NCBI GenBank assembly: GCA_024641545.1
Contig: JAHECW010000029.1
Span: 1 to 40,967, forward strand
Direction of reading: 5' to 3'
DNA from: Acidobacteriota bacterium
Lineage (GTDB): Bacteria; Acidobacteriota; Thermoanaerobaculia; Thermoanaerobaculales; Sulfomarinibacteraceae
Length of the DNA: 40,967 nt
Below are positions 1,468-19,770 of the stretch, in pieces. The notes beneath the pieces were generated by a model. It was not told the origin of the DNA, did no database searches, and worked only from the letters and a program-made list of their open reading frames with translations. Both the position numbers and the translations under genes were made by a program. How positions within the stretch are numbered: position 1 is the stretch's first letter; each line of letters begins with the position of its first letter.

Positions 1468-4400
1468 GAACGGACCTTCGAAGCACCCTGTTTGCAAGCT
1501 CGCTCGTGGTGGTGGCGGCGGTGGTTTCGGCAGCGTCGCCTGCCGCCGCGGCAGAGCCGATCTTCGAGGAGGTCGCGATCGCGGTCGGCCTCGATTTCGT
1601 CCACTTCAACGGCATGAGCGGCGGGATCTACATGTCGGAGATGATGGGCTCCGGCGCCGCGTTCTTCGACTACGACAACGACGGCGACGTCGACGTCTAC
1701 CTCGTTCAGGGCGCGATGCTCGAAAAGGACATGCCGCCTTCAGCGGCCGCTTTCCCGCCGATCGGGGACGCGGTCCCGTCCGACCGGTTGTTCCGCAACG
1801 ACACCTCGGTCGGGCCGGATGGCGGGGTGAGACTGCGATTCACCGATGTGACGGCCGCCGCCGAGCTCGACGTCCGGGGCTACGGGATGGGTGTCGCCGC
1901 CGCCGACTACGACAACGACGGGTGGGTCGATCTCTATGTCACCAACCTCGGGTCCAACGTCCTGCTGCACAACGAAGGAGACGGGACGTTTTCCGACCGC
2001 ACCGCCGCCGCAGGGGTCGACGACCCACGCTGGAGCGTCTCGTCCTCGTTCTTCGACGCCGACCGGGACGGCCGGCTCGACCTCTACGTCACCAACTATG
2101 TCGACTTCGGTCTCGACAACCACAAGGTCTGTCGCGACGGTTCGGGCGCCCGGGACTATTGCGGTCCCATGGCCTACGGGAAGCTCCCCGACCGGCTCTT
2201 CCGCAATCGCGGCGACGGGACCTTCGAGGACATCTCCGCCGCCGCGGGCATCGCCCGGGTGAAGGGCGCAGGTCTCGGAGTGGTCGCCGCAGATTTCGAC
2301 AACGACGGTTGGCTCGACCTCTACGTCGCCAACGACCGCGACGAGAACCGACTGTGGGTCAACCAGAGGGACGGCACGTTCAAGGACAACGCCCTGCTCG
2401 CGGGGTGCGCGGTCAACCTCGACGGCCGCACCGAGTCGAGCATGGGAGTCGCGGCCGGCGACCTCGACGAGGACGGCGACGAGGACCTGTTCACCACCCA
2501 CCTCGGCGGCGAAACCAACACCCTGTACGTCAACGACGGGAAGGGCAACTTCACCGACGGCACCATCGCCGCCGGGCTGGCCGGACCGAGCCTGCGGTTC
2601 ACCAGCTTCGGCACCGATTTCCGCGACCTCGACAACGACGGCTGGCTCGACCTGCTGGTGGTCAACGGGGCGATGATCCGCAAACCCGAGCTCGTCCGCG
2701 CCGGCGACCCGTACCCGCTGCACGAACCCAACCAGTTCTTCCGGAACCTCGGTGGCGGCCGTTTCGACGATGCGACCGCCCTCGGCGGACCGGCCCTCGC
2801 CCTGTCCGAGGTCAGCCACGGCGCCGCCTTCGGTGACATCGACAACGACGGTGATGTCGACGTGGTTGTGACCAACAACAACGGACCGGTCAGACTGCTC
2901 GTCAACCGAAGCGCTCCCGCCCGCCCGTGGATCGGTCTCGAGGTGGTGGACCCCACCCTCAAGCGGTCCGCGCTCGGCGCCCGGCTACGAGTCATCCAGG
3001 GCGATGTCGTCCGTCACCGGCGGGTCGCCGCCGACGGCAGCTACGCCTCGGCGAGCGATCCGCGGGTGGTGGTCGGCCTCGCCGGCCGCACCGAGGCCGT
3101 CTCGGTGGTCGTGACCTGGCCGGACGGTCGGGTCGAGGGTTTCTCGAAGCTCGAGATCGGCGCGTACAACCAGCTGCGCCGCGGCGCCGGCCGGATCGAG
3201 GGCGTCGAGCTCGATGAGACCCCAGCTCCGGTTCTGTCGGGCGTCCCAGACACCGTGCTCGACCACGTCGCGGAACAGACCGCGGCGCTGGCCGCCGCCC
3301 GGGCGGATCGATCGGTCTCGTCGATCGAGCTGGCCGAGTCCTTCGGCGAGACCGGCAGGGTGTACCAGGCCTACGACCTTGTCGACGAGGCCGCGCCCTG
3401 CTACCGCAACGCCGGCCGGCTCGATCCGGAAGACAGCCGGTGGACCTACCTGCTCGGGACGGTCGAGCTCGAGCGCGGCCGGATGGCCGAGGCCCTCGAT
3501 GCATACGACCGTTGTCGCAGGCTCGGTGAAGATGGGCCGATCGTCCTCACCCGACGCGCGGAAGCGCTCCTCCAGCTCGGTCGTTTCGACGAGGCGGAGG
3601 CCTCGGCCCGGGCAGCCCTCGAGCTCGATCCGGCGCTCGCAGCGGCGTATTCGCTCGCCGGGCAGGCGGCGGTGGCGAGAGGCGATCCCGCTACGGCGGC
3701 CGACCACCTGATGACGGCGTTGGAGCTGCAACCCCAGGCGACCAAGCTGGTGTACCCGCTGGTCGCCTCGCTGCGTCGGCTCGGACGGGACGAGGAGGCC
3801 GAGGCCTGGGCGGCGCGGCGGGGCGAGGGCAGTGTGGTCTTCCCCGACCCCGAGCTGGCGGCCATCGAGGACCTCAACCGCAGCTCGAGCCACCAGACCG
3901 ATCGCTGTCTCGAGGCGTTGGATGCCGAGCGGCCGGATCGGGCGGCCGGCTACTGCCGCAGGGCGCTGGTAGTCGACGGGGCGAACCTCGAGGCGCGAAT
4001 CAACCTCGCGGTGGCCTTCGCCCGGCTCGGGATGAGCGACCGGGCAATTGCGGAGAACCGCGAGGTGCTCCGCACCGCGCCCGCCAACCTCACCGCGCGG
4101 TTCAATCTTGCCGCGCTGCTCGGCGAGGCCGGCGACGACCGGGCGGCGCTCTTCCACCTCGACCGGCTGGTGTCGGACGACCCGGACCACGTCGACGGGA
4201 GGTTCAACCGGGCCAACGCCCTGCGCCGGCTCGGCCGGTGCGACGAGGCGGTCGGGGACTACCGGGTGGTGATCGGGATCGATCCCGGCAGATCCGCGGC
4301 CGCGATCGGCGAGGCGATGTGTCTCGTGACGCTCGGCCGGTTCGGCGAGGCGCGGTCGCGGCTCGAGCAGGCGCTCGACGCAGACCCGGACGATCTCGCG

Positions 4401-4694
4401 GTCGCCGACGCCCTCGCGCGGGTTCTTTCGACCGCCGCCGCCGACCAACTGAGGGACGGGGCGCGCGCGGTGGAGCTCGCGCACCGGGTCGTCGCCGCGG
4501 AGCGCGGCTGGCCTTCCCTCGAAACCCTCGCCATGGCGCTGGCCGAGACCGGCGACCTCGGAGCGGCGGCGGAGGTCCAGGCCGAAGCGGTCGAGGCGGC
4601 TCGGTCGGCGGACCTCCCCGGGAGCGTCGACGCCCTCGAGGCGCGGCGGCTGGAGTACCTCAGCGGGTCGCCGTGCCGGATCCCGTGGCGGTGA
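1464..4694 (+). CDS. Secreted VCBS/FG-GAP-ASPIC (CRTAC1-type) protein with C-terminal TPR repeats
   Basis: A 1076-residue protein with TTG start overlapping the previous stop. Residues 1-30 form a Sec signal peptide ending in a run of Ala. Seven DxDxDG-type calcium-loop repeats (for example YDNDGDVDVY, FDNDGWLDLY, IDNDGDVDVV) mark an FG-GAP/VCBS beta-propeller over about residues 35-480. An ASPIC/UnbV domain (LGARLRV ... VTWPDGRVEGF) follows at about 490-590. From about 620 to 1050 the chain is Ala/Leu/Arg-rich helical repeats of TPR type (for example LEPGR-like turns and ALELDPALAAAYSLAG). The family is common in Acidobacteria and Planctomycetes; its biochemical role is not established and a binding or scaffolding role outside the inner membrane is inferred. 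Its 3' end overlaps the end of the opposing operon by 35 bp. Confidence 0.85.
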   Translation: MRTDLRSTLFASSLVVVAAVVSAASPAAAAEPIFEEVAIAVGLDFVHFNGMSGGIYMSEMMGSGAAFFDYDNDGDVDVYLVQGAMLEKDMPPSAAAFPPIGDAVPSDRLFRNDTSVGPDGGVRLRFTDVTAAAELDVRGYGMGVAAADYDNDGWVDLYVTNLGSNVLLHNEGDGTFSDRTAAAGVDDPRWSVSSSFFDADRDGRLDLYVTNYVDFGLDNHKVCRDGSGARDYCGPMAYGKLPDRLFRNRGDGTFEDISAAAGIARVKGAGLGVVAADFDNDGWLDLYVANDRDENRLWVNQRDGTFKDNALLAGCAVNLDGRTESSMGVAAGDLDEDGDEDLFTTHLGGETNTLYVNDGKGNFTDGTIAAGLAGPSLRFTSFGTDFRDLDNDGWLDLLVVNGAMIRKPELVRAGDPYPLHEPNQFFRNLGGGRFDDATALGGPALALSEVSHGAAFGDIDNDGDVDVVVTNNNGPVRLLVNRSAPARPWIGLEVVDPTLKRSALGARLRVIQGDVVRHRRVAADGSYASASDPRVVVGLAGRTEAVSVVVTWPDGRVEGFSKLEIGAYNQLRRGAGRIEGVELDETPAPVLSGVPDTVLDHVAEQTAALAAARADRSVSSIELAESFGETGRVYQAYDLVDEAAPCYRNAGRLDPEDSRWTYLLGTVELERGRMAEALDAYDRCRRLGEDGPIVLTRRAEALLQLGRFDEAEASARAALELDPALAAAYSLAGQAAVARGDPATAADHLMTALELQPQATKLVYPLVASLRRLGRDEEAEAWAARRGEGSVVFPDPELAAIEDLNRSSSHQTDRCLEALDAERPDRAAGYCRRALVVDGANLEARINLAVAFARLGMSDRAIAENREVLRTAPANLTARFNLAALLGEAGDDRAALFHLDRLVSDDPDHVDGRFNRANALRRLGRCDEAVGDYRVVIGIDPGRSAAAIGEAMCLVTLGRFGEARSRLEQALDADPDDLAVADALARVLSTAAADQLRDGARAVELAHRVVAAERGWPSLETLAMALAETGDLGAAAEVQAEAVEAARSADLPGSVDALEARRLEYLSGSPCRIPWR

Positions 4695-5892
4695 CAGCTC
4701 CGACGGTCTGAGACAGCACCGGTCGCGCCGCCGTGTTGCCGCCGCCGGTGTCCCACGCGATGGTCCCGCTGGTTCCCGTGAACGGAGCGGTTTTGGCGAT
4801 CCGGTCGACCAGCTCGACGCGGCCTGAAGCGCCGGATCGGATGGCGTCGATGAGGATGCGGGCGGCGTCGTAGCCGTAGACCGCCTCCTGCGTCGGCGCC
4901 TCGCCGTGGCGCTCGATGAACGCGCGGACGAGCTTGAGGGTGGGTCCGCAGGCGTGAGCGGTTTCGAAAGGCACCACCGAGATCACCGAGCCGGAATAGG
5001 CGAGGGGAAACTGGCGCAGGTCGAGGCCGGGGATCCACGGCAGGAAGAGCGGGATCTTGAGACCCGCCGTTCCGAGGGTGTCGGTCAGACGCCGGAGATC
5101 GGTGCGGGGCACCCGGATGACGAGGCCGTCCGGCTTGAAACCGGCGGCCCTCGATGCGAGATCGGCGAGATCCGCCGCATTCGGCGCGAGCTCGAGATGG
5201 AAGGCGGGCGGTACACCGGCTCGTTCGAGGGCGGCGGTCACCTCGGCGGCAACGGTGCGGCCGTCGTGGTCGGTCGAGGTCAGAAGCCCGATCCGCTCGA
5301 GTCCCCGGGGCCTGATTCCCTCCGAGACGAGCAGGGTCGCCTGGGCGCCGTCGTCGGGCGGCAGGCGGAAGATCCAGGGCACCCGGGTGCGGGTCAACGT
5401 GGGATCCGACGAAACGGGCGCGATGAGGGGGATGTGGGCCTTGGTGGCGACCTGCTGCGCGATGTGTGTGCTGGCGCCGTCGGGGCCGCCGATCATCGCC
5501 CATGCCTGGTCTTCGAAGACCAGTTTGATCACCTCGTTGGCGCCGGCGCCCCAGGGGTCGTCGGCCCAGCGCCGCACGAGACGGATCGGTCGGCCGCCGA
5601 TGCCGCCCGCCGCGTTGGCCTGGTCGACGGCGAGGGCCGCGCCGCGGACCATAGCGCGTCCTACGGGGTGGTCGTCGTCATCGGGAGCGAAGATCCCGAT
5701 GACGATCTCGCCGTTCGAGACTCCGCTGCCGGGCAGGGTCTCGGATCCGGTGAACTCGAGCGGATCGTCGAGCATCCGCTTGTAGGGCTCGTCGGCAGGG
5801 GCCACAACGGCACTGCCGAGCAACGCAGCTAGGGTGAAACCGATGGCCGGAAACCGGCGCCTTCGACGATCGTCAGGCGGGCGGCCTTTCAC
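4660..5892 (-). CDS. LivK-like periplasmic substrate-binding protein, copy B
   Basis: A periplasmic binding protein of the branched-chain amino acid type (Peripla_BP_6). The GTG start at 5892 overlaps the upstream stop (GTGA) and gives a 410-residue protein with a signal peptide (hydrophobic core IGFTLAALLGSAVVA). An ATG at 5931 would overlap the upstream gene by 43 bp and is less likely. The ligand-binding fold shows GAALAVDQANAAGGI, a GGPDGASTHIA segment and YGYDAARIL near the C-terminus. It is a clear paralogue of the gene immediately upstream: both share a short (D/E)PYK start, W-G-x-x-x-NE, and DPTxxxTRxPWxxR. No lipobox is present and no Liv permease or ATPase gene is in the window, so a sensory or delivery role for the redox operon is more likely than classical ABC import. 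It is the last gene of the operon. Confidence 0.85.
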   Translation of the reverse strand: MKGRPPDDRRRRRFPAIGFTLAALLGSAVVAPADEPYKRMLDDPLEFTGSETLPGSGVSNGEIVIGIFAPDDDDHPVGRAMVRGAALAVDQANAAGGIGGRPIRLVRRWADDPWGAGANEVIKLVFEDQAWAMIGGPDGASTHIAQQVATKAHIPLIAPVSSDPTLTRTRVPWIFRLPPDDGAQATLLVSEGIRPRGLERIGLLTSTDHDGRTVAAEVTAALERAGVPPAFHLELAPNAADLADLASRAAGFKPDGLVIRVPRTDLRRLTDTLGTAGLKIPLFLPWIPGLDLRQFPLAYSGSVISVVPFETAHACGPTLKLVRAFIERHGEAPTQEAVYGYDAARILIDAIRSGASGRVELVDRIAKTAPFTGTSGTIAWDTGGGNTAARPVLSQTVGAVTATGSGTATR

Positions 5893-7214
5893 GAGTCTCC
5901 ATGCACCTCGTCGAGGTGCCTGAAGACCCATCCGCCGTTCTCGATCAGGGCGAGCAGCGCGGGACTGCGGTTGGAGCAGACGGCGTCGTAGGTCTTCTCC
6001 CCGGTGACGCCGTGCCAGGCCTTGACCGACATCAGCTCGTCGCGGATGAGGGCGCGATTGAGACCGGCCTTCTCGATGGCGTCGATGAGCTGGGCCATGC
6101 CGTCGTAGGCGTGCGCGGCGTAGGCATCGGGAGGCCCGCCGAAACGGTCGGCGAAAGCCTTGACGAAGGCGGTGTGAGCGGGATCCGTGCTGGTCGGATC
6201 ATAAGGATAGCCCGCCACCACCGGACCGGGATCGGGTCCGACCGTTTCGAGAAACTCGGCGGTCGCCATCCGGTCGGAACCGATGAAGAGCTGGTTCATC
6301 CCCATCGCGCGCATCTGGGAGAGGATGAGGGCCGACTCGGCGGCGTCGCCCCAGGTGATGACCGCGTCGGGCTTGAGGGCCTTGATCCGCTCGAGCTGGG
6401 GCGAGAAGTCGGTCGCTCCGAGGGGGTAGTTGAGCTCGGCGAGAAAGGGGTGGCCGAGACGGGTCGAGGCGTCGCGGAACTCGTCGATGCTGATCCGGCC
6501 GTAGCGGTTGTTCGCGCGCAGCGCCGCCACCCGTTTGAACCCGAGAGTGCCGTAGACGTATTCGGCCAGGGCGTAGCTCATCTGGCGGTCGTCGGTGATG
6601 TTGCGGCAGACCCACGGGATCCTGGTCTCGATGAAGGTCGGGTCGGTGTCGCCGGTGTTCATCATCGGGACCTCGGCCTTGAGGGCGACCCGGATGGCGA
6701 TGTGGCTGTTGGCGCCGTCGATGGTGCCGAGGATGGCCCAGACCTTCGCGTTGTAGGCGAGATCGACGATCTCGTTGCCGCTCGAGCCCCAGAGGCCGTT
6801 GTCGTTGCGGACGACGAGCTCGTAGGGCACGGCCCGGGGCCGGTATCCGCCGCGCGCGTTGGCATGCTCGATGGCGAGCTCTGCGCCGTGCAGCATCATC
6901 ACGCCGAGGGGCTCCTCGTGCGAGGCGCCGCCGGTGGCCACCGAGACGGTCGACTCGATGGGCCCGAGGAAGCCGATTCGGACGCTGTCGACCTGTTTCG
7001 GCTCCGCCAGCTCACGGCCGTAGCCGCGGTACTCGTTGGGCTCGAGAAAGAAGGTCTTGTAGGGCTCGGTGAAGCGGCCGTAGGGGACCAGTTCCTCGGG
7101 AGTGTCTCCGTAGACCTGGGGTTTCTCGGCCGCGGTCGTGCCCGGGTCCTCGGCGGCGACGGGTCCGGCCGCAACCGCCATCGCGGCCGCCAGCGCGACG
7201 GGGGCGATTCTCAT
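5889..7214 (-). CDS. LivK-like periplasmic substrate-binding protein, copy A
   Basis: A 441-residue Peripla_BP_6 protein with a signal peptide (APVALAAAMAVAAGPVAA) and no lipobox. Its ATG overlaps the upstream stop (ATGA at 7211-7214). Family features are the first strand VRIGFLGPIE, HGAELAIEHANARGGY, IDGANSHIA, DTDPTFIETRIPW and AAHAYDGMAQLIDAI. It has an N-terminal extension of about 75 residues before the first strand of the fold, which the general LivK family lacks, partly shared with copy B. The lone LivK-type proteins associated with PQQ-alcohol-dehydrogenase loci are a known parallel for permease-less members next to redox genes; whether this one belongs to that group is not shown. Confidence 0.85.
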   Translation of the reverse strand: MRIAPVALAAAMAVAAGPVAAEDPGTTAAEKPQVYGDTPEELVPYGRFTEPYKTFFLEPNEYRGYGRELAEPKQVDSVRIGFLGPIESTVSVATGGASHEEPLGVMMLHGAELAIEHANARGGYRPRAVPYELVVRNDNGLWGSSGNEIVDLAYNAKVWAILGTIDGANSHIAIRVALKAEVPMMNTGDTDPTFIETRIPWVCRNITDDRQMSYALAEYVYGTLGFKRVAALRANNRYGRISIDEFRDASTRLGHPFLAELNYPLGATDFSPQLERIKALKPDAVITWGDAAESALILSQMRAMGMNQLFIGSDRMATAEFLETVGPDPGPVVAGYPYDPTSTDPAHTAFVKAFADRFGGPPDAYAAHAYDGMAQLIDAIEKAGLNRALIRDELMSVKAWHGVTGEKTYDAVCSNRSPALLALIENGGWVFRHLDEVHGDS

Positions 7215-8425
7215 GGCGTGTCCCCCTGCGGTTCGGCGGCGCTCGCCGGCGGTCGGACCCCGTCGTAGTAGCCGACGCCGCGGCCGCGGGCGAGCCCGTG
7301 GCCGGTGCCGATCCAGACATCGTCACCCTGGATCTCGGCGGCGATGACGAAGTGGTTGGGAAGATCGAGGTTGGTGGCGATCGTGGCGAGCTCGTCCGCC
7401 CCGGTCCAGACGTGGGCGGACCAGGTGGCGGCGTCCTCGGCGTCGCGCCGGTAGGAGACCCAGGTGTCGCTCGCGAAATCCACCAGCACCGAGAGCCCGA
7501 GGTCGGTCGCGTTGACCGAGCTCGTGGCGCTCCGACCGACGGTGAAGTTGATGAAGTTGCTCGCCAGGCCGCTGTCGTGGTCCATCCAGCCGCGCCAGTG
7601 GCGGCCGTCGTAGCGGCTGAGGCCGAAGTAGGTGGAGGCCCAGAGCACGCCGTCGACATAGGAGGCCGAGGTGGTGATGATGTGGATCAGCCCGTCGTCG
7701 CGGTAGAGGTCGATCTCCATCTCACGGTCGGGGTCACGGTGGGCGTTCCAGCGCCGGGTGGCGACGTCCCACTCGAGTATGCCGCCGCCCCAGACCGCGG
7801 CGAAGACCTTGCCGTCGGCGGCGTCGACGCTGTAGCACCAGATCTCCTCCATCGGCGCGTTCTTCTCGGTGTAGATCTCCCACTCGCCGGTGACGGTGTT
7901 GAGGGCGTTCATCCCGGCGGTGGTGGCGACCCACACCGTGTCGTCGAGCACCGCCACCCCGTAGACGACGTCGTTGACGAGCCCGCTGTTGAACTGGTTG
8001 AAGTGGTCGAAGCGGCCGCCCGAAAAGCGTGCGAGACCGCCGCCGAAGAGGCCGAGCCAGACATCGCCGGTCTTCGCGCTGACCGCGATGGCGCTCACCA
8101 CCCGCCACGGCAGGCCGTCCTTTTCGCCCCAGCTCTTCCAGGTGCCGCCGTGGTAGAGGGCGAGCCCGTTTTCGGTGCCGACCCAGAGTCGATCGCCATC
8201 CGCGCGAAGCGCGAAGATGTGGTCGTTGGGCAGGCCGCCCTCCTCCGCGTAGAACGTCTCCCACAAAGTGTAGACAAACGGCGCGGCTTCGTCGCCCGGC
8301 GCCTCTCCATGTGCGTTCGAGACGACGACGGTCAACGGCAGACACGCAACGAGCACTGCGAAAACCAGGCCGCCCGGTAATCGGCGCGTCGATTTACAAC
8401 GTCTTGAGGTATTCAACGAGGTCAT
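7211..8425 (-). CDS. Secreted beta-propeller protein with two-component-regulator-propeller (Reg_prop) repeats
   Basis: A 404-residue protein with an N-terminal signal peptide or anchor (hydrophobic core GLVFAVLVACLPLTVVV at about residues 19-33). The body is a chain of propeller strands of the Reg_prop kind: GLPNDHIFALRADGDRLWVG, DGLPWRVVSAIAV, GLVNDVVYGVAV and GLASNFINF, each followed by a W-x-G/A/S-T motif and a short loop. In known proteins these repeats form the periplasmic sensor of hybrid histidine kinases; here there is no transmembrane helix after the propeller and no kinase, so only the binding part exists. It lies between the ten-haem protein (32 bp overlap) and LivK copy A (4 bp overlap), which indicates the same transcript. 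The ligand is unknown. Confidence 0.75.
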   Translation of the reverse strand: MTSLNTSRRCKSTRRLPGGLVFAVLVACLPLTVVVSNAHGEAPGDEAAPFVYTLWETFYAEEGGLPNDHIFALRADGDRLWVGTENGLALYHGGTWKSWGEKDGLPWRVVSAIAVSAKTGDVWLGLFGGGLARFSGGRFDHFNQFNSGLVNDVVYGVAVLDDTVWVATTAGMNALNTVTGEWEIYTEKNAPMEEIWCYSVDAADGKVFAAVWGGGILEWDVATRRWNAHRDPDREMEIDLYRDDGLIHIITTSASYVDGVLWASTYFGLSRYDGRHWRGWMDHDSGLASNFINFTVGRSATSSVNATDLGLSVLVDFASDTWVSYRRDAEDAATWSAHVWTGADELATIATNLDLPNHFVIAAEIQGDDVWIGTGHGLARGRGVGYYDGVRPPASAAEPQGDTP

Positions 8426-11204
8426 TGAGCTGGTCCTTGGTCATGTCGTTGGTCACGCCGTGTCGGTCGGTGCGGTTGAACCGGGTCCAGATCTCCTCCA
8501 GGGTCTCGGCTCGGCCGTCGTGGAGATAGGGCGCCGATTCGTAGATGTTGTTGAGGTGCGGGACGTCGAAGACGTCCTGCGTGTCGAGCTCGGTTCCGGT
8601 GCCGACCGAGTTCTTCTCGCGGTTGGTGAAGTAGGGGCCGGTGTGGCAGCCGCTGCACCTCTGGTTGGCGGTCAGCGGTTCGCCCGAATTCGAAAACTCC
8701 CGTTCGAAGAGCCGTTTGCCGCGGCGTTGTGCCGGGGTCAGGGTGTCGCCCGTGCGGTGGCGGTTCGGGTTCCTCGGAATCGTCTGGATGTAGCGTTCGA
8801 GCGCCACCACCTGGTCGGGCGTGAAGGGATCGATCCGGGTGAAGAAGACCGCCAGCCGCGGACCGCACTGACGGCCGATGGTGCGGTTCTTGCCGGTCCA
8901 CTTGAAGGGCGCGGTGTCGAGGATGCCGCGCAGCGAACGGTTGTCCACCGGGTTGAGTCCGATGCCGTCGGGCTCGATGTCGTAGGTGATGCCGTCGACC
9001 CCACCGTCGGGGTGGCAGGAGTGGCACGAGAACTGACCACCGAAGGTGACCTCGGCGGAGTGGAAGATCCGTTCGCCGGAGCGCGCGAGAGTGAGGTCCG
9101 AGGGCCCGCCCAGGTCGATGGTCGCAACGCGTTCACGACGCGACACGTCGATGACGCCGACGGCGTCGGCGAGAGCCTCGGCGACGTAGACGAAGCGGCC
9201 GTCGGGCGAAATCGCCAGACCGCGAGGATTGGTTCCGACGGGTATCCGTCGTTCCACGTACTCGGTCGAGACCCCCATGTGGTTCGGCAGGGTCTCGGCG
9301 CGGTCCCGGTCGGTGGCCGCGGCGAGGGTCGCGGCCATCCGGTCGAGATCGACCACCGCGACCGCATCGATCCCCCCGCCGCTCACGAAGGCGAGGCGCC
9401 CGTCAGGGGTGATCACCACGTCGGTGGGATCGGCGAAGTAGTTCTCCGGCTCGTCGAGGAGGAGTTGGTCGACCCGGCCGTCCCGCCACACGATGCCGAG
9501 GCCGTTGGTCATCACCCAACCCTGCATGACCCGGGTCATGGGCACCAGGTTTTTTGTCCGGATCAGGGTCACCAGCGCGTACTCGCCCGAGGGGGCGGTC
9601 GAGATCCCTTGAACGAGATTGGCCTCGGTGATCACGGCGCGGTCGAGGATCACCGACCGCTCGGTCTCGATCACCGTGACCTCGGACCGGGAAGGCGTCC
9701 TGAACGGCACGAAATGCGACAGGTTGTTGGTCACCAGGACCGCTGCGCCGTCGGCGGAACGGGCGACGTCCCACGCACCGCGTCCGGCCGCCAGCCGCTT
9801 GGTCTCCAGGCCGCGGGCGAGGTCGACGATCGAGACGTCGCCGGACCCGGCGTTGGCGACGTAGAGCGTGCCGCCGCTCGCGTCGGTGGTCAAGCCGTGC
9901 GGCTCGTCGCCGACGGCGATGGTCTGCTCAACCGTGAGCTTCGTCGTGTCGATCACCGACACCGTGTCCGAGCCCCGGTTGCTGACGTAGGCTCGAGCGC
10001 CGTCGGGCGACAGGCAGACCCCGTGCGGAAGCTGGCCGACCGCGACCTCGGCGACGACGGCCCGGGTCGTCGTGTCGATGACGACGAGGCTGCCCGACGC
10101 CTCGCACGCGACGAAGAGCCGTTCGCCGTCGGGACTGACCACCAGATTGAACGGGGTCTTGTACGGCGTCGCCGCCGCCACAGCCTGGGCCAGGGTGGGC
10201 AGACTGTGGTCGATCAGGGATTGCCGGTCGTCCCAGTCGGCGGTCGGCGGCATGCCGTGGATGCCGGGTGTGTGGCAGCGTTCGCAGGTTTCCCGGTTCG
10301 GTCTCGCCGGGGGCGCGGCGTCGATCCCGGCGGCGGCGTGGCCGGCGCCGGGTCCGTGGCAGCTTTCGCACTGGACTCCGAGCGTCGGGTCGAATCCGGG
10401 GCCGAGTCTCGAGCTCCCGGAAGCGGTGCTGTGGCACCGCAGACAGGCTTCGTCCCGCGCCGGATCTCCGGCGACGCCTTCGCTCGCGGCGATCCGACGG
10501 CCCCGCGGTCCGGTGAGAACCGCCCAGGCGTCGGCGTGCCCGGTCAGCCGCCAACCGCTGAAGATGTAGTTGCCCTTCCCGGCTTCGTGGCAGGCTGCGC
10601 AGGCGCGGGCGCCGACGAAGTCCGGATCGGATGATCGGGGCAGCGGTGGCGGCGGGTCGAGCTCGCCGCCGCGGCCGGTGTGGCTGATGCGGCCCAGAGC
10701 TTCGTCGGGGTCGAACGGTCGAACGTCGATGACCGCGGTGTGCGATCCCTTCTCCTTGTGGCAGATGAGGCAGGTCACGGCGGTCGGGCTCCGCAGACCG
10801 GCGGCCGCGGCCCGGTCGGGGTCGCTCATGACCTCCGCCGAGGAGTACTCGCTGCCGGGGCCGTGGCAGAGCTCGCACTGAACGCCGTCGGCGAGGTCGA
10901 AGGTCGCGTCCCGTTCCCACTCCTCGGTGTCGGCGGCGGTCGCGTGGCAGCCGAGGCAGACCGGGTTCGCGAACGGGTTCTCATGAATACCGGACAACCG
11001 GGCGATCTCGAGCGACTCGGGTCTGGCCAGAGCGGCCCAGGCGCGGGCGTGCGGCGAGCGCAGCCACGCGGCGTACTGGTCGCGGTGGCCGCCGCCGTGG
11101 CACTCGCGGCAGACCGCCGTGCCGACGTAGGTGCGATCCGCGCCGAGGGCGCCGGCAGCGACGGCGACCACGGCGACGACGAGGGCGAGCCGAGATCGGG
11201 GCAC
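8394..11204 (-). CDS. Ten-haem fusion: octahaem cytochrome c + YVTN beta-propeller + MauG/CCP dihaem domain (HzsBC-like)
   Basis: A 936-residue exported protein (GTG start, signal peptide of about 22 residues) lying 3 bp after the upstream gene. Eight CxxCH haem sites occur in residues 32-311, with cysteines starting at 32, 83, 110, 145, 202, 254, 279 and 307. This part resembles cytochrome c554-type multihaem modules (VGTAVCRECH ... SPHARAW). Residues about 335-715 are YVTN-type seven-bladed propeller repeats (VSPDGERLFVA, LSPDGARAYVSN, ISPDGRFVYVAE). The C-terminus holds two more haem sites (C727HSCH and C850SGCH) in a MauG/cytochrome c peroxidase frame, with the family ending APYLHDGRAETLEEIW. 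Propeller plus MauG-type dihaem domain is the architecture of the HzsB and HzsC subunits of hydrazine synthase. Its neighbour at 12869-14308 resembles HzsA. A role in periplasmic multi-electron chemistry or electron transfer is inferred; the substrate is unknown. Confidence 0.85.
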   Translation of the reverse strand: MPRSRLALVVAVVAVAAGALGADRTYVGTAVCRECHGGGHRDQYAAWLRSPHARAWAALARPESLEIARLSGIHENPFANPVCLGCHATAADTEEWERDATFDLADGVQCELCHGPGSEYSSAEVMSDPDRAAAAGLRSPTAVTCLICHKEKGSHTAVIDVRPFDPDEALGRISHTGRGGELDPPPPLPRSSDPDFVGARACAACHEAGKGNYIFSGWRLTGHADAWAVLTGPRGRRIAASEGVAGDPARDEACLRCHSTASGSSRLGPGFDPTLGVQCESCHGPGAGHAAAGIDAAPPARPNRETCERCHTPGIHGMPPTADWDDRQSLIDHSLPTLAQAVAAATPYKTPFNLVVSPDGERLFVACEASGSLVVIDTTTRAVVAEVAVGQLPHGVCLSPDGARAYVSNRGSDTVSVIDTTKLTVEQTIAVGDEPHGLTTDASGGTLYVANAGSGDVSIVDLARGLETKRLAAGRGAWDVARSADGAAVLVTNNLSHFVPFRTPSRSEVTVIETERSVILDRAVITEANLVQGISTAPSGEYALVTLIRTKNLVPMTRVMQGWVMTNGLGIVWRDGRVDQLLLDEPENYFADPTDVVITPDGRLAFVSGGGIDAVAVVDLDRMAATLAAATDRDRAETLPNHMGVSTEYVERRIPVGTNPRGLAISPDGRFVYVAEALADAVGVIDVSRRERVATIDLGGPSDLTLARSGERIFHSAEVTFGGQFSCHSCHPDGGVDGITYDIEPDGIGLNPVDNRSLRGILDTAPFKWTGKNRTIGRQCGPRLAVFFTRIDPFTPDQVVALERYIQTIPRNPNRHRTGDTLTPAQRRGKRLFEREFSNSGEPLTANQRCSGCHTGPYFTNREKNSVGTGTELDTQDVFDVPHLNNIYESAPYLHDGRAETLEEIWTRFNRTDRHGVTNDMTKDQLNDLVEYLKTL

Positions 11205-11207
11205 GGG

Positions 11208-12866
11208 TTACTTGACCGCTTTCTCGACCGGTGCGTCCACCGGTTCGGTGACGGTGAGCACCTGGTCCGCGGCGACGTTTTTCAGCGTCTGGGTCCGGCC
11301 GCCGGGCCAGCGGATCTCCACGGTGTCCGCGGTCGTCGAGGCTCCGAGCCCGAAATGGGCGCGCGGGTCCGACTGGGAGAGATAGCCCGAGCTCGATCTG
11401 ATCTCGCGGGTCTGGCTGAGCTCGCCGACGGTGAGCCGGATGCGGGCGCCGATGGCGTCGCGGTTGGCGGTCGACCCGATGCAGCGGATCATCAGCCAGT
11501 GACGGCGGTTGCCGCCGTCGTTGCGGTAGAGCCGGGGCGGGCCGTTGAGGTTGAGGACCAGCAGGTCGAGATCGCCGTCGTTGTCGATATCGGCGACCGC
11601 CGAACCGCGGCCGACGCCCTTGGCCTGAAAGTCCTTTCCGCTGGTCGCCGAGACATCGACAAATTTCGTACCGCCGTCGTTGTGCAGGAGGATGTCCTCC
11701 TCGGCCTCGAGGTGGTGGGCATCACCGTTGGCGATGAAGATGTCGAGCCACCCGTCGTTGTCGAAGTCGGCGAAGTTGCCGGACCAACTGGTGTACTGGC
11801 CGAGGGCGCGGGCGACGCCGAGGGCGGCGCTCTTCTCCTCGAAGAAGCCGCGTGCGGTGTTGCGGTAGAGGCAGCCGTACCCCATGTCGGGGACGAGAAG
11901 GTCCATGAGACCGTCATTGTCGAAATCGCCGAACTCGGGCCCCATCGCCGAGGTCGCTTCGCCGTTCTGACCGAAGGCGGTGCCGGTCTCGAGCGCGATG
12001 TTCTTGAAGGTTCCCTTGCCGGTGTTGCGGTAGAGGTAGTTCTCCATCCCGTCGTTGGCGACAAAGAGATCCTGGTGGCCGTCGTCGTCGATGTCGCACG
12101 ACGACACGCCCATGGCCCGGCCGGCGGCGGCGAGACCGGCCGACTTCGTCACGTTTTCGAAGCTGCCGTCGCCGCGGTTGCGGTACAGGATGTCGGTCTC
12201 GCCCGGGTAGGCGAGCGGGCCGGGAAACGCCTCGGCGGCGTAGTAGAAACGGTAGTCCGGGTCGAACTTGAGATAGCCGCCGACAAAGATGTCGAGGCGT
12301 CCGTCGCCGTCGGCGTCGAAGAACGTGGCGCCGACGCTCCACCGCTCGCTGCCGACTCCCGCGCTTGCCGTGACATCGGTGAAGGTGCCGTCGCCGTCGT
12401 TGCGGTAGAGGGTGTCGCGGCCGTAGTTGGTGATGAAGAGATCGGCGTCGCCGTCGTTGTCGACGTCGGCCGAAACCACGGCCATGCCGAAGCCCCTGTC
12501 TCCGACGCCCGCGGCCTCGGTCACGTCGGTGAACGTCCCGTCGCCGTCGTTGCGGTAGAGGGCGTTGCCGAGCTTGCCTTGGAGATGGCGGCCCTTGACC
12601 GAGCTGACGCCCTTGAAATAGCACCCGTTGACAAGGTAGATGTCGAGATCGCCGTCGCCGTCGTAATCGAAAAAGGCGCACCCCGCTCCGGTCGACTCGA
12701 CGATGTTCGAGAGCTCGTCGTCGCCGATGCTGTGGACAAAGCCGATCCCGGCTGAGGCGGTGATGTCGACGAAGATCGGGCCGGCGGTCTGGTCGGCGCC
12801 GAATGCGGCAGCGGCGACGAACGCGGCGCTGGCAACGGCGATGACCATGAGCATGGATCGAGGCAC
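11208..12866 (-). CDS. Secreted VCBS/FG-GAP-ASPIC (CRTAC1-type) protein
   Basis: I place the start at the GTG at 12866 because AAGGAG lies 7 bases upstream; the GTG at 12872 overlaps the previous stop but is only one base from that ribosome-binding site. The protein is 552 residues, with a signal peptide (MLMVIAVASAAFVAAAAFGA). Seven calcium-loop repeats of type DxDxDG (YDGDGDLDIY, VDNDGDADLF, FDNDGWLDIF and others) make an FG-GAP/VCBS propeller. The last ~100 residues are an ASPIC/UnbV domain (IGARIRLTVG ... VEIRWPGGRTQTL). It has the same design as the protein at 1464-4694 but without the TPR tail. It sits between the HzsA-like gene and the ten-haem gene, so it is probably a structural or partner protein of that complex (inference). 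Confidence 0.85.
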   Translation of the reverse strand: MPRSMLMVIAVASAAFVAAAAFGADQTAGPIFVDITASAGIGFVHSIGDDELSNIVESTGAGCAFFDYDGDGDLDIYLVNGCYFKGVSSVKGRHLQGKLGNALYRNDGDGTFTDVTEAAGVGDRGFGMAVVSADVDNDGDADLFITNYGRDTLYRNDGDGTFTDVTASAGVGSERWSVGATFFDADGDGRLDIFVGGYLKFDPDYRFYYAAEAFPGPLAYPGETDILYRNRGDGSFENVTKSAGLAAAGRAMGVSSCDIDDDGHQDLFVANDGMENYLYRNTGKGTFKNIALETGTAFGQNGEATSAMGPEFGDFDNDGLMDLLVPDMGYGCLYRNTARGFFEEKSAALGVARALGQYTSWSGNFADFDNDGWLDIFIANGDAHHLEAEEDILLHNDGGTKFVDVSATSGKDFQAKGVGRGSAVADIDNDGDLDLLVLNLNGPPRLYRNDGGNRRHWLMIRCIGSTANRDAIGARIRLTVGELSQTREIRSSSGYLSQSDPRAHFGLGASTTADTVEIRWPGGRTQTLKNVAADQVLTVTEPVDAPVEKAVK

Positions 12867-12868
12867 GG

Positions 12869-14308
12869 TCACTCTCCTTCTCGGCTCCCGGGCGATGCGA
12901 GCCCGATTGGGATCGCGGGCCGGACGATGGCTTGACCAAGGGTGTTCGGGGCGACCATCTCGCGATCCTCGTGACAACCGATGCAGCCGCGCCACTCGCG
13001 CGGCATGACCCAGGTCCAGGACTGCTGTTCGGCCAGGGTGCCGCCGTCGGCGTCGAGGAGCTCGAACCGAAGCGGCGTCCGGGCGGGGACCTCGATGTGG
13101 AAGGAGCCGTCGGCCGCGATTTCAGCTTCACCGAGAATCGCTTCCTCGGGTTCGGAGCCGCCCGCGTCGTCCGTCGACCCCGCGATCACCCGCAGCCGCC
13201 GCGCCGCGCCGCCGGCGAGGTGCTCGAGCCCGGGCCGGTCGGTGATGTGCGAGCTGATGCAGAAAAAGACACCGCTGGCGCGCTCGAGGTCCACCACCGT
13301 GGAGCGACCCTTGACCCGAGGCCGGGGGACGAGTTCGTGGGCGTCGAGACAGTGGTCGCCCTCGGCGCTGAACAGGGTTGCTCCGATCGTGCCGTCGTCG
13401 GGATCCACTTGAACGAGATCGAAGGTCGACGAGCCGGACCGCCGGTAGGAGGCGAGGAGGCCGCCGTCCGCCAACGGCAGGGGATCGAGGAACGCGCCGT
13501 CGGCGGCGCCGGCAAGGACCGAGTACGAGCGTAGCGGTCGTCTCAGCGTCACGAACGCCAGGTCGCCGCCGGCCAGTGCCGGGGTGGCCGAGTCGATGAA
13601 GTAGACGCGGCCGTCGCCGCCGACCCGGACGGCGTGCGGATACGTCGGGCCGGAATGCGGGTCGGCGAAGGTCATGAGATCGGTTCCGTCGATGTTCAGC
13701 CCCATGAGGGAAAGCCCGGTCGGCCCCCACGACGGATAGACCAGCCGGCCGTTGGGCAGGACATCGGCATCAAGGTCCGGGGCCGGCGAAAACGAGATCC
13801 TCACCGGGTCGTTGCCGTCGAGTTCGGCGGTGTGGATGGAGGTCGCGCTGCGGTTCTCGAGAGTGGTCGCGAGGTAGGAGATCAGCGCTGTCGGCGCGTC
13901 GTCGTCGAGGTGAAAGATGGACCCGATCCACAGCGGCGCCGTCGCGTCACCGGTCTCGGCGGTAAGCCGAACGGCGCCGGTTCCGTCGGAGTTCATCCGC
14001 CAGATCTGCCACGCCTCCTCGCGCGCTTTCCTCGCGGAGAAGAGGATCCGGCTGCCGTCGAAGGACACGGCGGGGTCGCAGGCGCCGTCGAAGTCGGGCG
14101 TCAGCGTCCGGGAAGCGCCGGTTGCGTCGAGGCGGACGATCCGGCTGCCGGAGACGCAGCGGGAAAACTGCGGGGACCCGCCCCCATCCGGATCGGCCGG
14201 TCGGAGCACCAGCACGAGATCAACGGCGATGCAGGGGCCGGCGATGAGGGCGGCGATCACCGCGACGGCGAGCGTCCGGCGGCGGCGGGCGCAGCGGAGG
14301 CTAGCCAT
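12869..14308 (-). CDS. HzsA-like (hydrazine synthase alpha-related) monohaem cytochrome
   Basis: A 479-residue exported protein with an N-terminal signal peptide (TLAVAVIAALIAGPCIAV). The first part carries TolB/PD40-like propeller strands (DGACDPAVSFDGSRILFSAR and IWRMNSDGTG), the pattern usual in HzsA-related proteins. The C-terminal part has a small beta-domain (GSFHIEVPARTPLRFELLD) followed by SWTWVMPREWRGCIGCHEDRE, with one haem c site, C442-C445-H446. This matches the haem-alpha-I region of hydrazine synthase alpha as I know it. The second haem domain of genuine HzsA (about 800 residues) is absent, so this is a shortened relative. HzsA-related proteins occur widely outside anammox bacteria without known function. 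The start overlaps the upstream stop by 8 bp and the stop is coupled to the next gene. Assignment rests on remembered motifs, not on a search. Confidence 0.7.
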   Translation of the reverse strand: MASLRCARRRRTLAVAVIAALIAGPCIAVDLVLVLRPADPDGGGSPQFSRCVSGSRIVRLDATGASRTLTPDFDGACDPAVSFDGSRILFSARKAREEAWQIWRMNSDGTGAVRLTAETGDATAPLWIGSIFHLDDDAPTALISYLATTLENRSATSIHTAELDGNDPVRISFSPAPDLDADVLPNGRLVYPSWGPTGLSLMGLNIDGTDLMTFADPHSGPTYPHAVRVGGDGRVYFIDSATPALAGGDLAFVTLRRPLRSYSVLAGAADGAFLDPLPLADGGLLASYRRSGSSTFDLVQVDPDDGTIGATLFSAEGDHCLDAHELVPRPRVKGRSTVVDLERASGVFFCISSHITDRPGLEHLAGGAARRLRVIAGSTDDAGGSEPEEAILGEAEIAADGSFHIEVPARTPLRFELLDADGGTLAEQQSWTWVMPREWRGCIGCHEDREMVAPNTLGQAIVRPAIPIGLASPGSREGE

Positions 14309-15449
14309 TGTCCGCTGAACGAAGTGGGATCACGGCGGTCGCGTCGATCTCGACCAGGAGATCCTCGCGACAGATGTCGTCGATGGTGCAGATGACCGGC
14401 AGGTCGGCGAGGCCGCGGGCCTTCAGGATCGATCTCAGACGCCCGATGTTGCCGCGCTCCTTGACGAAGGCGGTGGCCTGGCAGATGTTCTCCATCACCG
14501 CGCCGCGAGAGGCGAGCAGCGACTCGATGTTGTCGAGGGTGCGTCGGGTCTGACTCTCGAAATCGGCGGTGTGGACGGTCGCGCCGGTCTCATCGATGGA
14601 TGCGGTGCCCGAGACCAGGAAGGTCCGGCAGCTCGCGGTCGCCACGGTGAGTCCGCGCGAGAACGCCGAGCCGTAGTCGGGGGCCTCGTTCTGCAGGGGG
14701 TTGTGGAGCATCTCGATGGTCAGCGGTCGTTCCGGACGGGGTCTGACGGCCAGGAGGTCCAGAGTGCATCGGTGTCCGCGTGGATTTCGGCCGCAAATGC
14801 CGGTGCTCGCCGGGATGGTCCCCGGGCGCGAACCGTTGAGCAGACCGAGGCCGGCGAAGAACTCGTTGCGGGACGCGTTGAACTCGTCGTACCAGGAGAG
14901 GATGTCGTCGAGGTAGAACCAGGTTCGGCAGACATCGTTGAAGGACCAGCTCTGGGTCTCGAGCAGCCGAGCGGCCAGCAGCAGCGTGTCCCGCGTCTCG
15001 TCGGCCGGCGTGTCGTGGTCGCCCGCGCCGAGCGCCCGCCCGACATCGGACAGACCGAGGTAGTCCGCTTCCGCTCCCGAAACCCGGACGCCGCACGCCC
15101 GCTCGTCCCAGGTGATGGTCGCGATCGGATCCCGGCCGGAGGGGCGGACGGCGATGACGTGGATGCCCGCGACGAGACCGCCGTGGCTCGGTGCGCCCTG
15201 AATCAAGGTCGGCGGGACCCGGCCGGCACCGGTGCGGCCGATAACATCGGCACGGATGCGAAGAATGTCGTTCTCGGCTTCGAGGTCGCAGAATACCCGT
15301 TCCTGAATCGCGACCGCGCCGTGGGCCTCGAGGTGTCGGGAGATCGCTTCGTAGGCACGATGCATGCTTGCTTCGAGGTCGTCATCCGCCTCGTCAGGGA
15401 GCCAGGTCAGGAAGACCAGATCTCCGGAGCTGTTGGAACCAATCATCAT
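14301..15449 (-). CDS. Two-domain RidA/YjgF-like protein (FkbO/Hyg5 chorismatase-like)
   Basis: The C-terminal ~130 residues show a RidA/YjgF fold: FLVSGTASIDETG, a histidine a few residues on (TVHTADFESQT), RRTLDNIESLLASRGA and a final strand VEIDATAVIP. The N-terminal half is a second, diverged domain of the same kind with SWSFNDVCRTWFYLDDI and PASTGICGRNPRG. This two-domain layout is that of the chorismatase (FkbO/Hyg5/XanB2) group, which hydrolyses chorismate, but many relatives have unknown substrates. No signal peptide is visible, so it is probably cytoplasmic, unlike the rest of the operon. Start is uncertain: ATG at 15449 or 15446, or a GTG at 15485 that would run through a G8 tract; none has a convincing ribosome-binding site. 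It is the first gene of the operon. Confidence 0.65.
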   Translation of the reverse strand: MMIGSNSSGDLVFLTWLPDEADDDLEASMHRAYEAISRHLEAHGAVAIQERVFCDLEAENDILRIRADVIGRTGAGRVPPTLIQGAPSHGGLVAGIHVIAVRPSGRDPIATITWDERACGVRVSGAEADYLGLSDVGRALGAGDHDTPADETRDTLLLAARLLETQSWSFNDVCRTWFYLDDILSWYDEFNASRNEFFAGLGLLNGSRPGTIPASTGICGRNPRGHRCTLDLLAVRPRPERPLTIEMLHNPLQNEAPDYGSAFSRGLTVATASCRTFLVSGTASIDETGATVHTADFESQTRRTLDNIESLLASRGAVMENICQATAFVKERGNIGRLRSILKARGLADLPVICTIDDICREDLLVEIDATAVIPLRSADNG

Positions 15450-15698
15450 GATATCGGTGTTTCCCCCCCCAACCCGGATGATCACTGGATCGAAACAGTG
15501 GAAAATGTGAATCCCTGCCCGGTGGCCGCCTCAGGTTGAGGCTCATCTTAATCGAGATTGCCGGCGGTGCCAACGGGGCGGTTCCTGGAGCCGAGCCGCA
15601 AAATCACTGATTCTAAACAACATCCTTCTTTTGGAGTGGTTTTGATGCGCCGGCGTCCGGCGATGTTCGGGCGAAAGCCGCGGGTGGAAAGCCGGGGC

Positions 15699-16955
15699 TC
15701 AGATGGCGAAAAATGCGGCGATACTCACCGCCCCGAGGCCGGTGAGTACGGCGAGGGCGGTTTTCCCGGTGGTTCCCGATCCGAAGATGACGGCGTAGAA
15801 CCCCTTCATGAGGTTGTTGGTGGCGGCGGCGAGGACCACCGCGAGGGCCGCGGTTTCGAGCGCCAGCGACGTCCCGACCTGCTGGGTGATGCCGAGGATG
15901 AAAGGGTCGACATCGGCGGCGCCCATGACGGCGGCCAGGATCAGCACCCCGGTGCCGCCGAAGCGTTCGGCGACCAGACGAGTGCCCACCAGGACCGCCA
16001 GGAAGATCCCGGCGAAGGTGACGGCCGAGCGGATCTCGAGGGGGTTGGAAGGAGCCGACTGGGTGTCTCCGTTGCCGCGGCCGCTGCGTCCGATCCGGGT
16101 CAGAATGAAACCGAGGATCAACGCGGTCGCGCTCAGCCCGCAGAAGAGAATCGCCAACTGTCTCCCCAACGCCGGTGCGAAGAGCGAGACCAGGACCCAG
16201 AGCCTGATGTACATCACCCCGGTGGCGGCGACGATGGCGCCGGAGTAGGAGAGGGCGGGGTGGCAGCCGCCGTTGGATTGGCGGGCGAGGACCACCGTCG
16301 TCACGGTCGAGGAGTAGGCGCCGCCGAGGATGCCGGACAGGAGCAGGGCCCGGTCGCCGAGCCTGAGTTGCAGCAGGTAGCTCGCGTAGGACACCCCGGA
16401 GACCGCCACCACCACCAACCAGATCGTGAACGGATTGATCTCGAAGGTGGTGAAGGATTGATTCGGCACCGCGGGCAGGATGACCGCGGTGAGGACCAGA
16501 AACCGCAACAGGGTCCGCAGCTCCTTCGGAGGGACCCTCAGGGCGAGCCCTTCGAGGCCCTGTTTTTCGTGCAGCAGGATGACGGCAACGATCCCGACGC
16601 TGAGTGCGAGCCAGTACATTTCGTGCGACGCGGCGGCGCCGAGCGAGAACGTCAGCAGGGCGGCGAACTCGGTGGTCAGGCCGAGGTCATTGGCCTGGAC
16701 GCTGCCCCAGTGCGTGACCGCGAGCAGGAGTCCGAGGACCAGCAGCCCGACGGCAAACGGAATCGGCGTGTCGAAGACCCTGACCAGCAAGAAGCCGAGG
16801 AGTCCGATCATGGGGAAGGTGCGGATGCCGCCGAAGAAGCCCGCCGGGTCGTCGGGCCGCTGCTCCTCGCGCTCGAACCCGATCAGGAGCGAGAGCCCCA
16901 GGGTCACGGCAAAACCCGCCAGCTCCGGCGGCAGATGTTGGAACAGCGTGTCCAT
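15699..16955 (-). CDS. MgtC/SapB and DUF4010 family membrane protein
   Basis: A 418-residue polytopic inner-membrane protein with about 12 hydrophobic segments. The N-terminal third has the MgtC/SapB signature: LGLSLLIGFEREEQ, then FFGGIRTFPMIGLLGFL. The remainder corresponds to DUF4010 (GGAYSSTVTTVVLARQS, and near the end AAATNNLMKGFYAVIFGS). Function of this fused family is not established; MgtC proteins affect magnesium adaptation and ATP synthase, and a transport role is suspected. It stands alone on the (-) strand, with the hairpin at 16981-17061 between it and hutU upstream. No obvious Shine-Dalgarno precedes the ATG at 16955. Confidence 0.85.
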   Translation of the reverse strand: MDTLFQHLPPELAGFAVTLGLSLLIGFEREEQRPDDPAGFFGGIRTFPMIGLLGFLLVRVFDTPIPFAVGLLVLGLLLAVTHWGSVQANDLGLTTEFAALLTFSLGAAASHEMYWLALSVGIVAVILLHEKQGLEGLALRVPPKELRTLLRFLVLTAVILPAVPNQSFTTFEINPFTIWLVVVAVSGVSYASYLLQLRLGDRALLLSGILGGAYSSTVTTVVLARQSNGGCHPALSYSGAIVAATGVMYIRLWVLVSLFAPALGRQLAILFCGLSATALILGFILTRIGRSGRGNGDTQSAPSNPLEIRSAVTFAGIFLAVLVGTRLVAERFGGTGVLILAAVMGAADVDPFILGITQQVGTSLALETAALAVVLAAATNNLMKGFYAVIFGSGTTGKTALAVLTGLGAVSIAAFFAI

Positions 16956-16980
16956 AGTGTAAGTTTATGCCATCAACGCT

Positions 16981-17061
16981 CTTCTTTCTTCAACATTGGA
17001 ATCACGGGTGAATCGATGTCGCTGCTGCGATCGTGGTGATTCCAATGCCGAAGAAAGAAAG
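16981..17061. terminator. Long inverted repeat downstream of hutU
   Basis: Two arms of about 25 bases, 16981-17005 and 17036-17061, pair with two internal mismatches over their 24 innermost bases and enclose a 30-base loop. The arms end in TTCTTTC / GAAAGAA. It begins 11 bases after the hutU stop on the (-) strand, where it would end hutU transcription and separate it from the DUF4010 gene. The stem is long for a simple intrinsic terminator, so it may also be a dispersed repeat element. Confidence 0.5.
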
Positions 17062-17071
17062 ATGACCAGGT

Positions 17072-19491: not shown

Positions 19492-19770
19492 ATGATGACG
19501 CTCGACGCCGTGGGGATCCATCGCGAAGCCCGGGTGATCATGATCGACGGGGGCCAGAAGATCCGTTCCTACCTCAATACTCTCGGCATCCACATCGGAG
19601 ATTGGCTGACCGTCGTCCAGCGCGCACCCTTCAGGGGCCCGGTCCTGGTTGAAATCCACGGCACCCGCGTCGCGCTCGGCCGCGGCGTCGCCAGCAAGAT
19701 CCAGGTCGACATGGACGGTGTCGTCAGACAGCTGTCCGGAACGATGGAGGCGGTCGGGGCCGGAAAGTGA
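19492..19770 (+). CDS. feoA: Ferrous iron transport protein A
   Basis: A small SH3-like FeoA protein of 92 residues from the ATG at 19492. It begins MMTLDAVGIHREARV, then LNTLGIHIGDWLTVVQ, a diverged form of the family's R-L-x-x-L-G-x-x-x-G-x-x-V core, and ends in the usual strand RVALGRGVASKIQV. FeoA binds the cytoplasmic part of FeoB and supports Fe(II) uptake. ATGs at 19456 and 19459 would add 12 or 11 Gly-rich residues of no family likeness; a G-rich GGAGGGG lies 11-12 bases before 19492. The stop overlaps the start of feoB by one base (TGATG). Confidence 0.85.
   Translation: MMTLDAVGIHREARVIMIDGGQKIRSYLNTLGIHIGDWLTVVQRAPFRGPVLVEIHGTRVALGRGVASKIQVDMDGVVRQLSGTMEAVGAGK

Follow-up and report, generated by a model that had tools for sequence, protein, structure and literature searches.

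The seven-gene operon on the (-) strand of a 40,967-nucleotide stretch of Acidobacteriota DNA (contig JAHECW010000029.1, family Sulfomarinibacteraceae; the whole stretch is termed the window) was found to encode an exported multihaem complex that, as judged from its sequences, shares the ancestry and architecture of hydrazine synthase (HZS) and is not a hydrazine synthase. The first gene of the operon is a chorismatase homologue with the active-site residues of the Hyg5 type, and cleavage of chorismate is predicted for it from its sequence and structural model. The chances that a chorismate-derived compound is the partner of the complex were considered about evenly balanced. The overall reading, in which a hydroxybenzoate-type compound would be made by a cytosolic arm and worked on by the exported HZS-like haem complex, was judged plausible and somewhat less than even, with a substrate and a direction that we infer. 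Hydrazine synthase was long believed to have no relatives, and those found in 2025 were without known function. With the substrate clue given by the first gene, the role of the HZS relatives and the origin of anammox chemistry become open to test.

The kinship of the alpha subunit with HzsA was evaluated via profile searches and structural comparison. The Pfam family HZS_alpha matched above its cut-off (1.8e-19). Kuenenia HzsA (5c2v_A) was matched at 2.6e-16 by the single sequence and at 9e-61 by an 18-member profile, whose match spanned the propeller and the middle domain and stopped at the alpha-I haem motif. The AlphaFold2 model (predicted local distance difference test, pLDDT, 88) gave a Z score of 37.7 over 441 residues against HzsA, and the next fold, TolB, gave 27. 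No other HZS_alpha gene is present in the genome (5.4 Mb). The betagamma fusion matched NF052342 (hydrazine_BC) at 2.4e-63. As a single sequence, it matched 5c2v_B at 1e-43 and 5c2v_C at 3e-18, and its profile matched HzsB at 3.4e-73 along 343 columns and HzsC at 1.3e-35. The fusion carries 10 CXXCH motifs, of which eight lie in two c554 modules and two in the gamma part. Moreover, the profile match to HzsB included the HZS-specific blade-6 loop, which in HZS is located in the gamma-alpha tunnel according to the main text of Hagglund et al. (2025; PMC12758564); the loop was retained in the betagamma relatives (K in 77/79, P in 79/79 and G in 79/79). The operon haem proteins are, on the evidence of sequence, true distant relatives of HZS by common descent rather than by a shared propeller alone, and the identity of the parts is very probable. 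The original prediction had named an HzsA-like haem protein and a seven-bladed YVTN propeller joined to a MauG-type di-haem domain and an octahaem cytochrome; both assignments were borne out.

The active-site residues were examined in a census, in which about 80-97 relatives were aligned with HzsC and HzsA; the roles of these residues in HZS have been described (PMC12607021; main text of PMC12758564). In the gamma part, Cys102, Cys105 and His106 were conserved in all relatives, and His229 and His332 (His915 in the window) in nearly all. Gamma-Cys165, the extra haem-bond Cys of gamma-I, corresponds in the alignment to Cys780 of the window and was Cys in 70/78 relatives. The position of gamma-His144 was occupied by Trp769 in the window and by Trp in 77/77 readable relatives, and that of gamma-Asp168 was Leu in the window and Asp in no relative. 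The proximal Tyr591 of the alpha-I haem was also lost, and a Tyr within 6 residues of the CXXCH was present in 0/97 homologues. Furthermore, the alpha-II bis-His haem domain was missing from the window alpha, which has a single CXXCH and ends after this first haem. Other chemistry than that of HZS is therefore probable, as the original prediction had supposed. Its statement that the operon holds exactly the parts of hydrazine synthase needed correction, since alpha-II is absent and the gamma pocket contains the Trp of MauG and cytochrome c peroxidase (CCP). All three subunits are related to HZS, and an unrecognised hydrazine synthase was nevertheless considered extremely improbable. The active-site residues and alpha-II are lacking, the curated HZS equivalog scores were 79 bits where 800 are required and 214 bits where 1250 are required, and the same verdict on relatives is given in the main text of PMC12758564. 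The census confirms this published work on a larger, mostly different set.

Relatives of the operon were collected in a scan of 84,980 species, in which at least 563 alpha loci were detected. The best 80 were analyzed, and they favour the window's operon type because they were chosen by likeness to the window alpha. Gene content was counted in 64 loci, the window among them, whose sequence extends at least 8.5 kb beyond alpha on the downstream side. A same-strand betagamma gene accompanied alpha in 64/64 loci, RegProp in 62, LivK1 in 61, CRTAC1 in 59, the c554 part in 52 and LivK2 in 51. Neither outcome by which the original prediction was to be refuted, a missing HzsA match or an alpha and betagamma that never stand together, was observed. 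The exact gene order of the window occurred in 15/64 loci, and in 3 more with a 3-deoxy-D-arabino-heptulosonate 7-phosphate (DAHP) synthase gene added; the gene order recurred in at least six phyla. The hosts were Omnitrophota, Gemmatimonadota, Planctomycetota, Verrucomicrobiota, Acidobacteriota, Bacteroidota, Marinimicrobia and Desulfobacteraceae. Being this widespread, the operon may be the sign of a redox process that has been overlooked in soils, sediments and groundwater. The c554 part varied between lineages, with eight haems at the N-terminus, four at the C-terminus, a separate gene, a single haem or none, as expected for a swappable electron link that adapts to the partner of the host. 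In L036, L037 and L042, a c554 tetrahaem was located at the C-terminus of betagamma rather than at the N-terminus, and in L032 the c554 gene was separate and placed between the LivK genes.

Among 396 Acidobacteriota genomes, the HZS_alpha domain (PF18582) was present in 47 and the operon type in 19. The PF18582 operon was found in 2/20 genomes of the window's own family. The second of these, L032 (G003:C350), falls on a remote branch of the betagamma tree; judged from sequence, this suggests that the operon moves between lineages by horizontal transfer. The position of HZS in this tree was left unassigned because the HZS branch is very long. The L131 contig, filed as Arcobacter, carried an operon nested within Bryobacteraceae and is probably a mis-assigned record. 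Long PF18582 proteins of 700-1400 aa (L052-L071) represent another use of the domain in Acidobacteriota, and no operon-type betagamma gene was found near them. Elsewhere in the window genome, haem-copper oxidase subunits and two matches to the hydroxylamine oxidoreductase fold were detected, so the host can probably respire oxygen.

The first gene was matched by the Pfam family L-PSP (RidA-like) at 3.8e-16. Its 27-sequence profile ranked Hyg5 (5ag3) at 4.5e-21, FkbO at 2.7e-18 and RidA at 1e-14. The model (pLDDT 88.6) gave Z scores of 32.8 over 299 aa for Hyg5 and 32.2 for FkbO; the next unrelated fold reached 13.5, and single RidA domains reached about 11. The motifs VSGTAS and DICREDLLVEI (family form D(V/I)CRxDLLVEI) match the Gly, Cys and catalytic Glu of Hyg5. 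Gly293, Cys372 and Glu379 were invariant in 27/27 sequences and aligned to the CH-II Gly, Cys and Glu334 of Hyg5. Glu334 of Hyg5 protonates chorismate, and three residues mark the 3-hydroxybenzoate-forming subfamily (PMC7170507). The first gene holds 2/3 of these markers in a mapping made in this analysis. The likeness to Hyg5, a 3-hydroxybenzoate synthase, thus covers the whole fold and both motifs, whereas the identity is 24%, the score lies well below the curated family cut-off, and the gene lies in a haem operon rather than an antibiotic cluster. Imine chemistry of the RidA type, which was prompted by the Pfam match and by the resemblance of LivK to amine binders, was dropped because profile, fold and motifs all favoured a chorismatase. 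Arg105 (PAR motif) has its role in the RidA imine deaminase; this position was Ser (PAS) in single-domain members, and the window protein has no Arg there.

In 36/64 loci, the chorismatase-like gene was part of the operon and shared its strand. With a gene call at E < 1e-45, which leaves a clear gap from ordinary RidA, the gene was present in 19/19 of the Acidobacteriota genomes with an operon-type alpha and in 20/377 of the others (Fisher 6e-22), and by genus in 15/15 vs 12/195 (6e-16), counts that ignore shared ancestry. In one of the 20 alpha-less chorismatase genomes (G298), a fragment of alpha is actually present at the end of a contig (L162). In 9/19 operon-type genomes, the gene was apart from alpha and was there sometimes paired with DAHP synthase (L172, L178 and L179, as well as the second copy in L182); such a pair away from the operon was also seen in L165. 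DAHP synthase is the first enzyme of the shikimate path. It was the commonest recurrent neighbour outside the seven genes, with TIGR01361 and NF006421 above their cut-offs; beyond it, the flanks of the loci showed local synteny only. It was in the operon in 16/64 loci, adjoined it in about 20, and stood between LivK1 and LivK2 in three (L047, L147 and L150). Loci bearing it were scattered across the betagamma tree. All of the tested genomes with an operon DAHP synthase (9/9) held at least two other genes of this family; hence, the operon copy is an extra one.

Chorismatase-like genes were also observed in other redox surroundings. In L152 (9150-12749), such a gene precedes a c554-TPR multihaem protein by 79 nt in a genome without alpha. 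In L153, L156, L158 and L159, likewise from genomes without alpha, it stands beside a c554-TPR multihaem protein, and in seven other loci a PD40-TPR protein is close to it. Exported redox systems linked to a chorismatase may thus form a second family, in genomes without alpha.

In the proposed mechanism, DAHP synthase would drive carbon into chorismate, and the chorismatase would cleave chorismate into pyruvate and a hydroxybenzoate-type acid, with 3-hydroxybenzoate as a first guess. The acid would exit the cytosol, and LivK1 and LivK2 would hold and present it in the periplasm; this role as presenters is proposed because no permease lies beside them. The gamma-I haem, linked via the Trp and gamma-II to the c554 haems, would then carry out one- or multi-electron redox chemistry on the acid, probably a phenol oxidation with electrons leaving via the octahaem. 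The alpha haem would act on an intermediate at the far end of an HZS-type path through beta, and CRTAC1 and Reg_prop would be propellers with a structural role. A quinone-like shuttle or a coupled aromatic could be formed. Both this product and the direction in which electrons flow are rather doubtful as proposed. It is also conceivable, although unlikely, that the nearest living HZS relatives are dedicated enzymes for a chorismate-derived aromatic, and that the fold, before it came to join N to N, first served in the periplasm as a haem machine for a small phenolic acid supplied by its own operon. Several other readings were explored. The PDB ranking placed amino-acid binders as the best matches of LivK, and no ligand was assigned. 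A membrane ATP-binding cassette importer was not favoured, as no permease or ATPase family of the LivKHMGF type recurred within the flanks examined; the rest of the genome was not searched. A pyrroloquinoline quinone (PQQ)-alcohol-dehydrogenase system, prompted by TIGR03866 and the LivK partner, was set aside because the operon contains no PQQ enzyme.

Several observations weigh against the overall reading. No operon relative has a known function, and no exporter for an aromatic acid was identified. The TIGR04444 match of the first gene (1e-15; 57.8 of 325 bits) is far under the curated cut-off for proven chorismatases, and many relatives have a single-domain version. LivK1 ranked closest to branched-chain amino-acid binders in the PDB, not to aromatic binders. 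In nearly half of the loci, no chorismatase-like gene was seen beside alpha, and DAHP synthase is absent from the window itself. Alpha is missing from about half of the Acidobacteriota that bear the chorismatase, so the aromatic would not be made for this complex alone. Several host groups are probably anaerobes, a poor fit for MauG-type oxidation with O2 or peroxide.

Other explanations were weighed on the same evidence. A reductive nitrogen enzyme amounting to half of HZS would take in electrons via c554, reduce nitric oxide (NO; or nitrite or hydroxylamine) at gamma-I, and finish or detoxify the product at alpha, with the chorismatase as a side partner. It would account for the extra Cys at the gamma-I haem and the bis-His gamma-II kept as in HzsC; c554 belongs to a nitrogen-cycle cytochrome family, and gamma-I of HzsC binds NO (PMC12607021). 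This explanation was regarded as unlikely, since Asp168, His144 and Tyr591 are lost in all relatives and the neighbour survey revealed no nitrogen-cycle gene recurring beside the operon, the recurrent neighbours being chorismate enzymes. Less likely still was a maturation role like that of MauG or MbnH, in which gamma would oxidise an aromatic residue of CRTAC1, Reg_prop or LivK to a protein-derived cofactor. The Trp that separates the haems, a feature of MauG and CCP according to the main text of PMC12758564, the weak MbnH and MauG profile matches and the several exported partners in fixed order agree with it. Nevertheless, no candidate quinone subunit is present, the HZS-type beta loop and the alpha subunit, both missing in MauG, are retained, and the chorismatase is left unexplained.

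The chorismatase and the DAHP synthase might instead feed quinone or pigment synthesis, their only tie to an electron-transfer complex being a common regulation. Elsewhere among bacteria, chorismatases of the XanB2 type are used for pigments and ubiquinone (PMC3949708), and the chorismatase-like gene also occurs without alpha. The 19/19 co-occurrence and the position of DAHP synthase between the two LivK genes count against it, and no quinone or pigment gene recurred nearby in the neighbour survey, so this explanation was given the same low standing as maturation.

The HZS link itself is not new. Clusters of alpha, CRTAC1, betagamma and substrate-binding proteins were published in December 2025 as HZS-like clades I-III (Hagglund et al., 2025; PMC12758564); the main text describes the relatives with their octahaem, the CRTAC1 and substrate-binding genes beside them and the residue losses that were also seen here. 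The window resembles these clades in having alpha upstream of a fused betagamma, CRTAC1 between them and two substrate-binding proteins, and also in the Trp for gamma-His144 and the retained gamma-Cys165. The N-terminal octahaem c554 on betagamma and the CRTAC1 between alpha and betagamma are clade I features. The window differs from clade I in lacking the alpha-II haem site, which most members have and for which O. terrae is the published exception; it therefore mixes a clade I octahaem with an alpha without alpha-II, the latter as reported in the main text for clades II/III and O. terrae. The chorismatase-like (RidA) and regulator-propeller genes go unmentioned in that main text, and DAHP synthase in the sections of it that were consulted. 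The literature search, in which subscription papers and preprints were not searched, turned up no paper that connects hydrazine synthase homologues to chorismate. As far as this search reached, the chorismatase identity of the first gene, the constancy of its occurrence, the additional DAHP synthase copy and the Reg_prop partner are new.

Relative to Kuenenia HZS (PDB 5c2v), the window shares the HzsA propeller and middle domain, the HzsB propeller with its blade-6 loop and the HzsC di-haem fold. It differs in the absence of Tyr591, His144, Asp168 and alpha-II, in the fusion of beta and gamma with eight more haems, in the reversed gene order and in its extra genes. MauG and the bacterial di-haem peroxidases likewise have two CXXCH motifs and a Trp between the haems, whereas the window domain is fused to an HzsB-type propeller, has an extra Cys near gamma-I and has a gamma-II distal His like that of HzsC. 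The hzs-like genes of Phycisphaerae UBA1845 (PMC10732223) also comprise a fused betagamma with alpha upstream; they have no CRTAC1 between the genes and belong to another branch of the tree. The UBA1845 genomes OFTM285, OFTM5 and OFTM371 are among the present loci (L106, L127 and L129).

The features of the operon are listed in Table 1. All seven open reading frames were present between 15485 and 4660 and were tightly packed into one coupled operon, as originally predicted, and the domain searches agreed with the CRTAC1-type, Reg_prop-type and two LivK-type secreted proteins. The gene set thus stood as described; the chorismatase-like first gene and the DAHP synthase link, most telling on the substrate, had been overlooked. 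The domain order along the transcript was L-PSP/chorismatase-like, HZS_alpha, FG-GAP with UnbV_ASPIC, c554 (twice) with YVTN and di-haem, Reg_prop and two Peripla_BP_6. The chorismatase-like stop and the alpha ATG overlapped by 8 nt, the alpha stop and the CRTAC1 GTG overlapped by 4 nt, and a 3 nt gap separated the CRTAC1 stop from the betagamma GTG. The RegProp/LivK1 and LivK1/LivK2 junctions were ATGA and GTGA overlaps, respectively. An N-terminal signal-like stretch was found in 6/7 operon proteins, the first gene product being the one without.

Table 1. Features of the seven-gene operon in the window; assignments are predictions from sequence and models.
Feature	Position	Strand	Details
Chorismatase-like protein (Hyg5/FkbO fold)	14301..15485	(-)	start GTG 15485 or ATG 15449; signal peptide none seen
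HzsA-like alpha subunit	12869..14308	(-)	signal peptide, six-bladed propeller, HZS_alpha middle domain, one haem CIGCH residues 442-446
CRTAC1-type FG-GAP / UnbV_ASPIC propeller protein, exported	11208..12872	(-)	probable start GTG 12872
Betagamma fusion	8394..11204	(-)	octahaem c554 aa 1-335, HzsB-like seven-bladed propeller ~340-690, HzsC-like di-haem domain ~700-936; 10 haems
Octahaem c554-type electron wire within betagamma	10200..11204	(-)	aa 1-335, eight CXXCH
Gamma-like di-haem domain within betagamma	8394..9110	(-)	CHSCH (727), CSGCH (850)
Reg_prop propeller protein, exported	7211..8425	(-)	domain search
LivK1, LivK-type substrate-binding protein	5889..7214	(-)	conserved N-terminal PYK..FL....Y.GxGR extension
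LivK2, LivK-type substrate-binding protein	4660..5892	(-)	probable start GTG 5892

Upstream of the operon, genes for an MgtC/DUF4010 membrane protein and urocanate hydratase (15699-19063, (-) strand) were followed by FeoB (19767-21689, (+) strand), with no indication that these three belong to the operon. On the other side, a second CRTAC1-type protein, fused to TPR repeats (1464-4694, (+) strand), is oriented convergently with the operon, with which it overlaps at the end of LivK2. The start of this gene is overlapped by that of a PPIC-type prolyl isomerase (82-1467).

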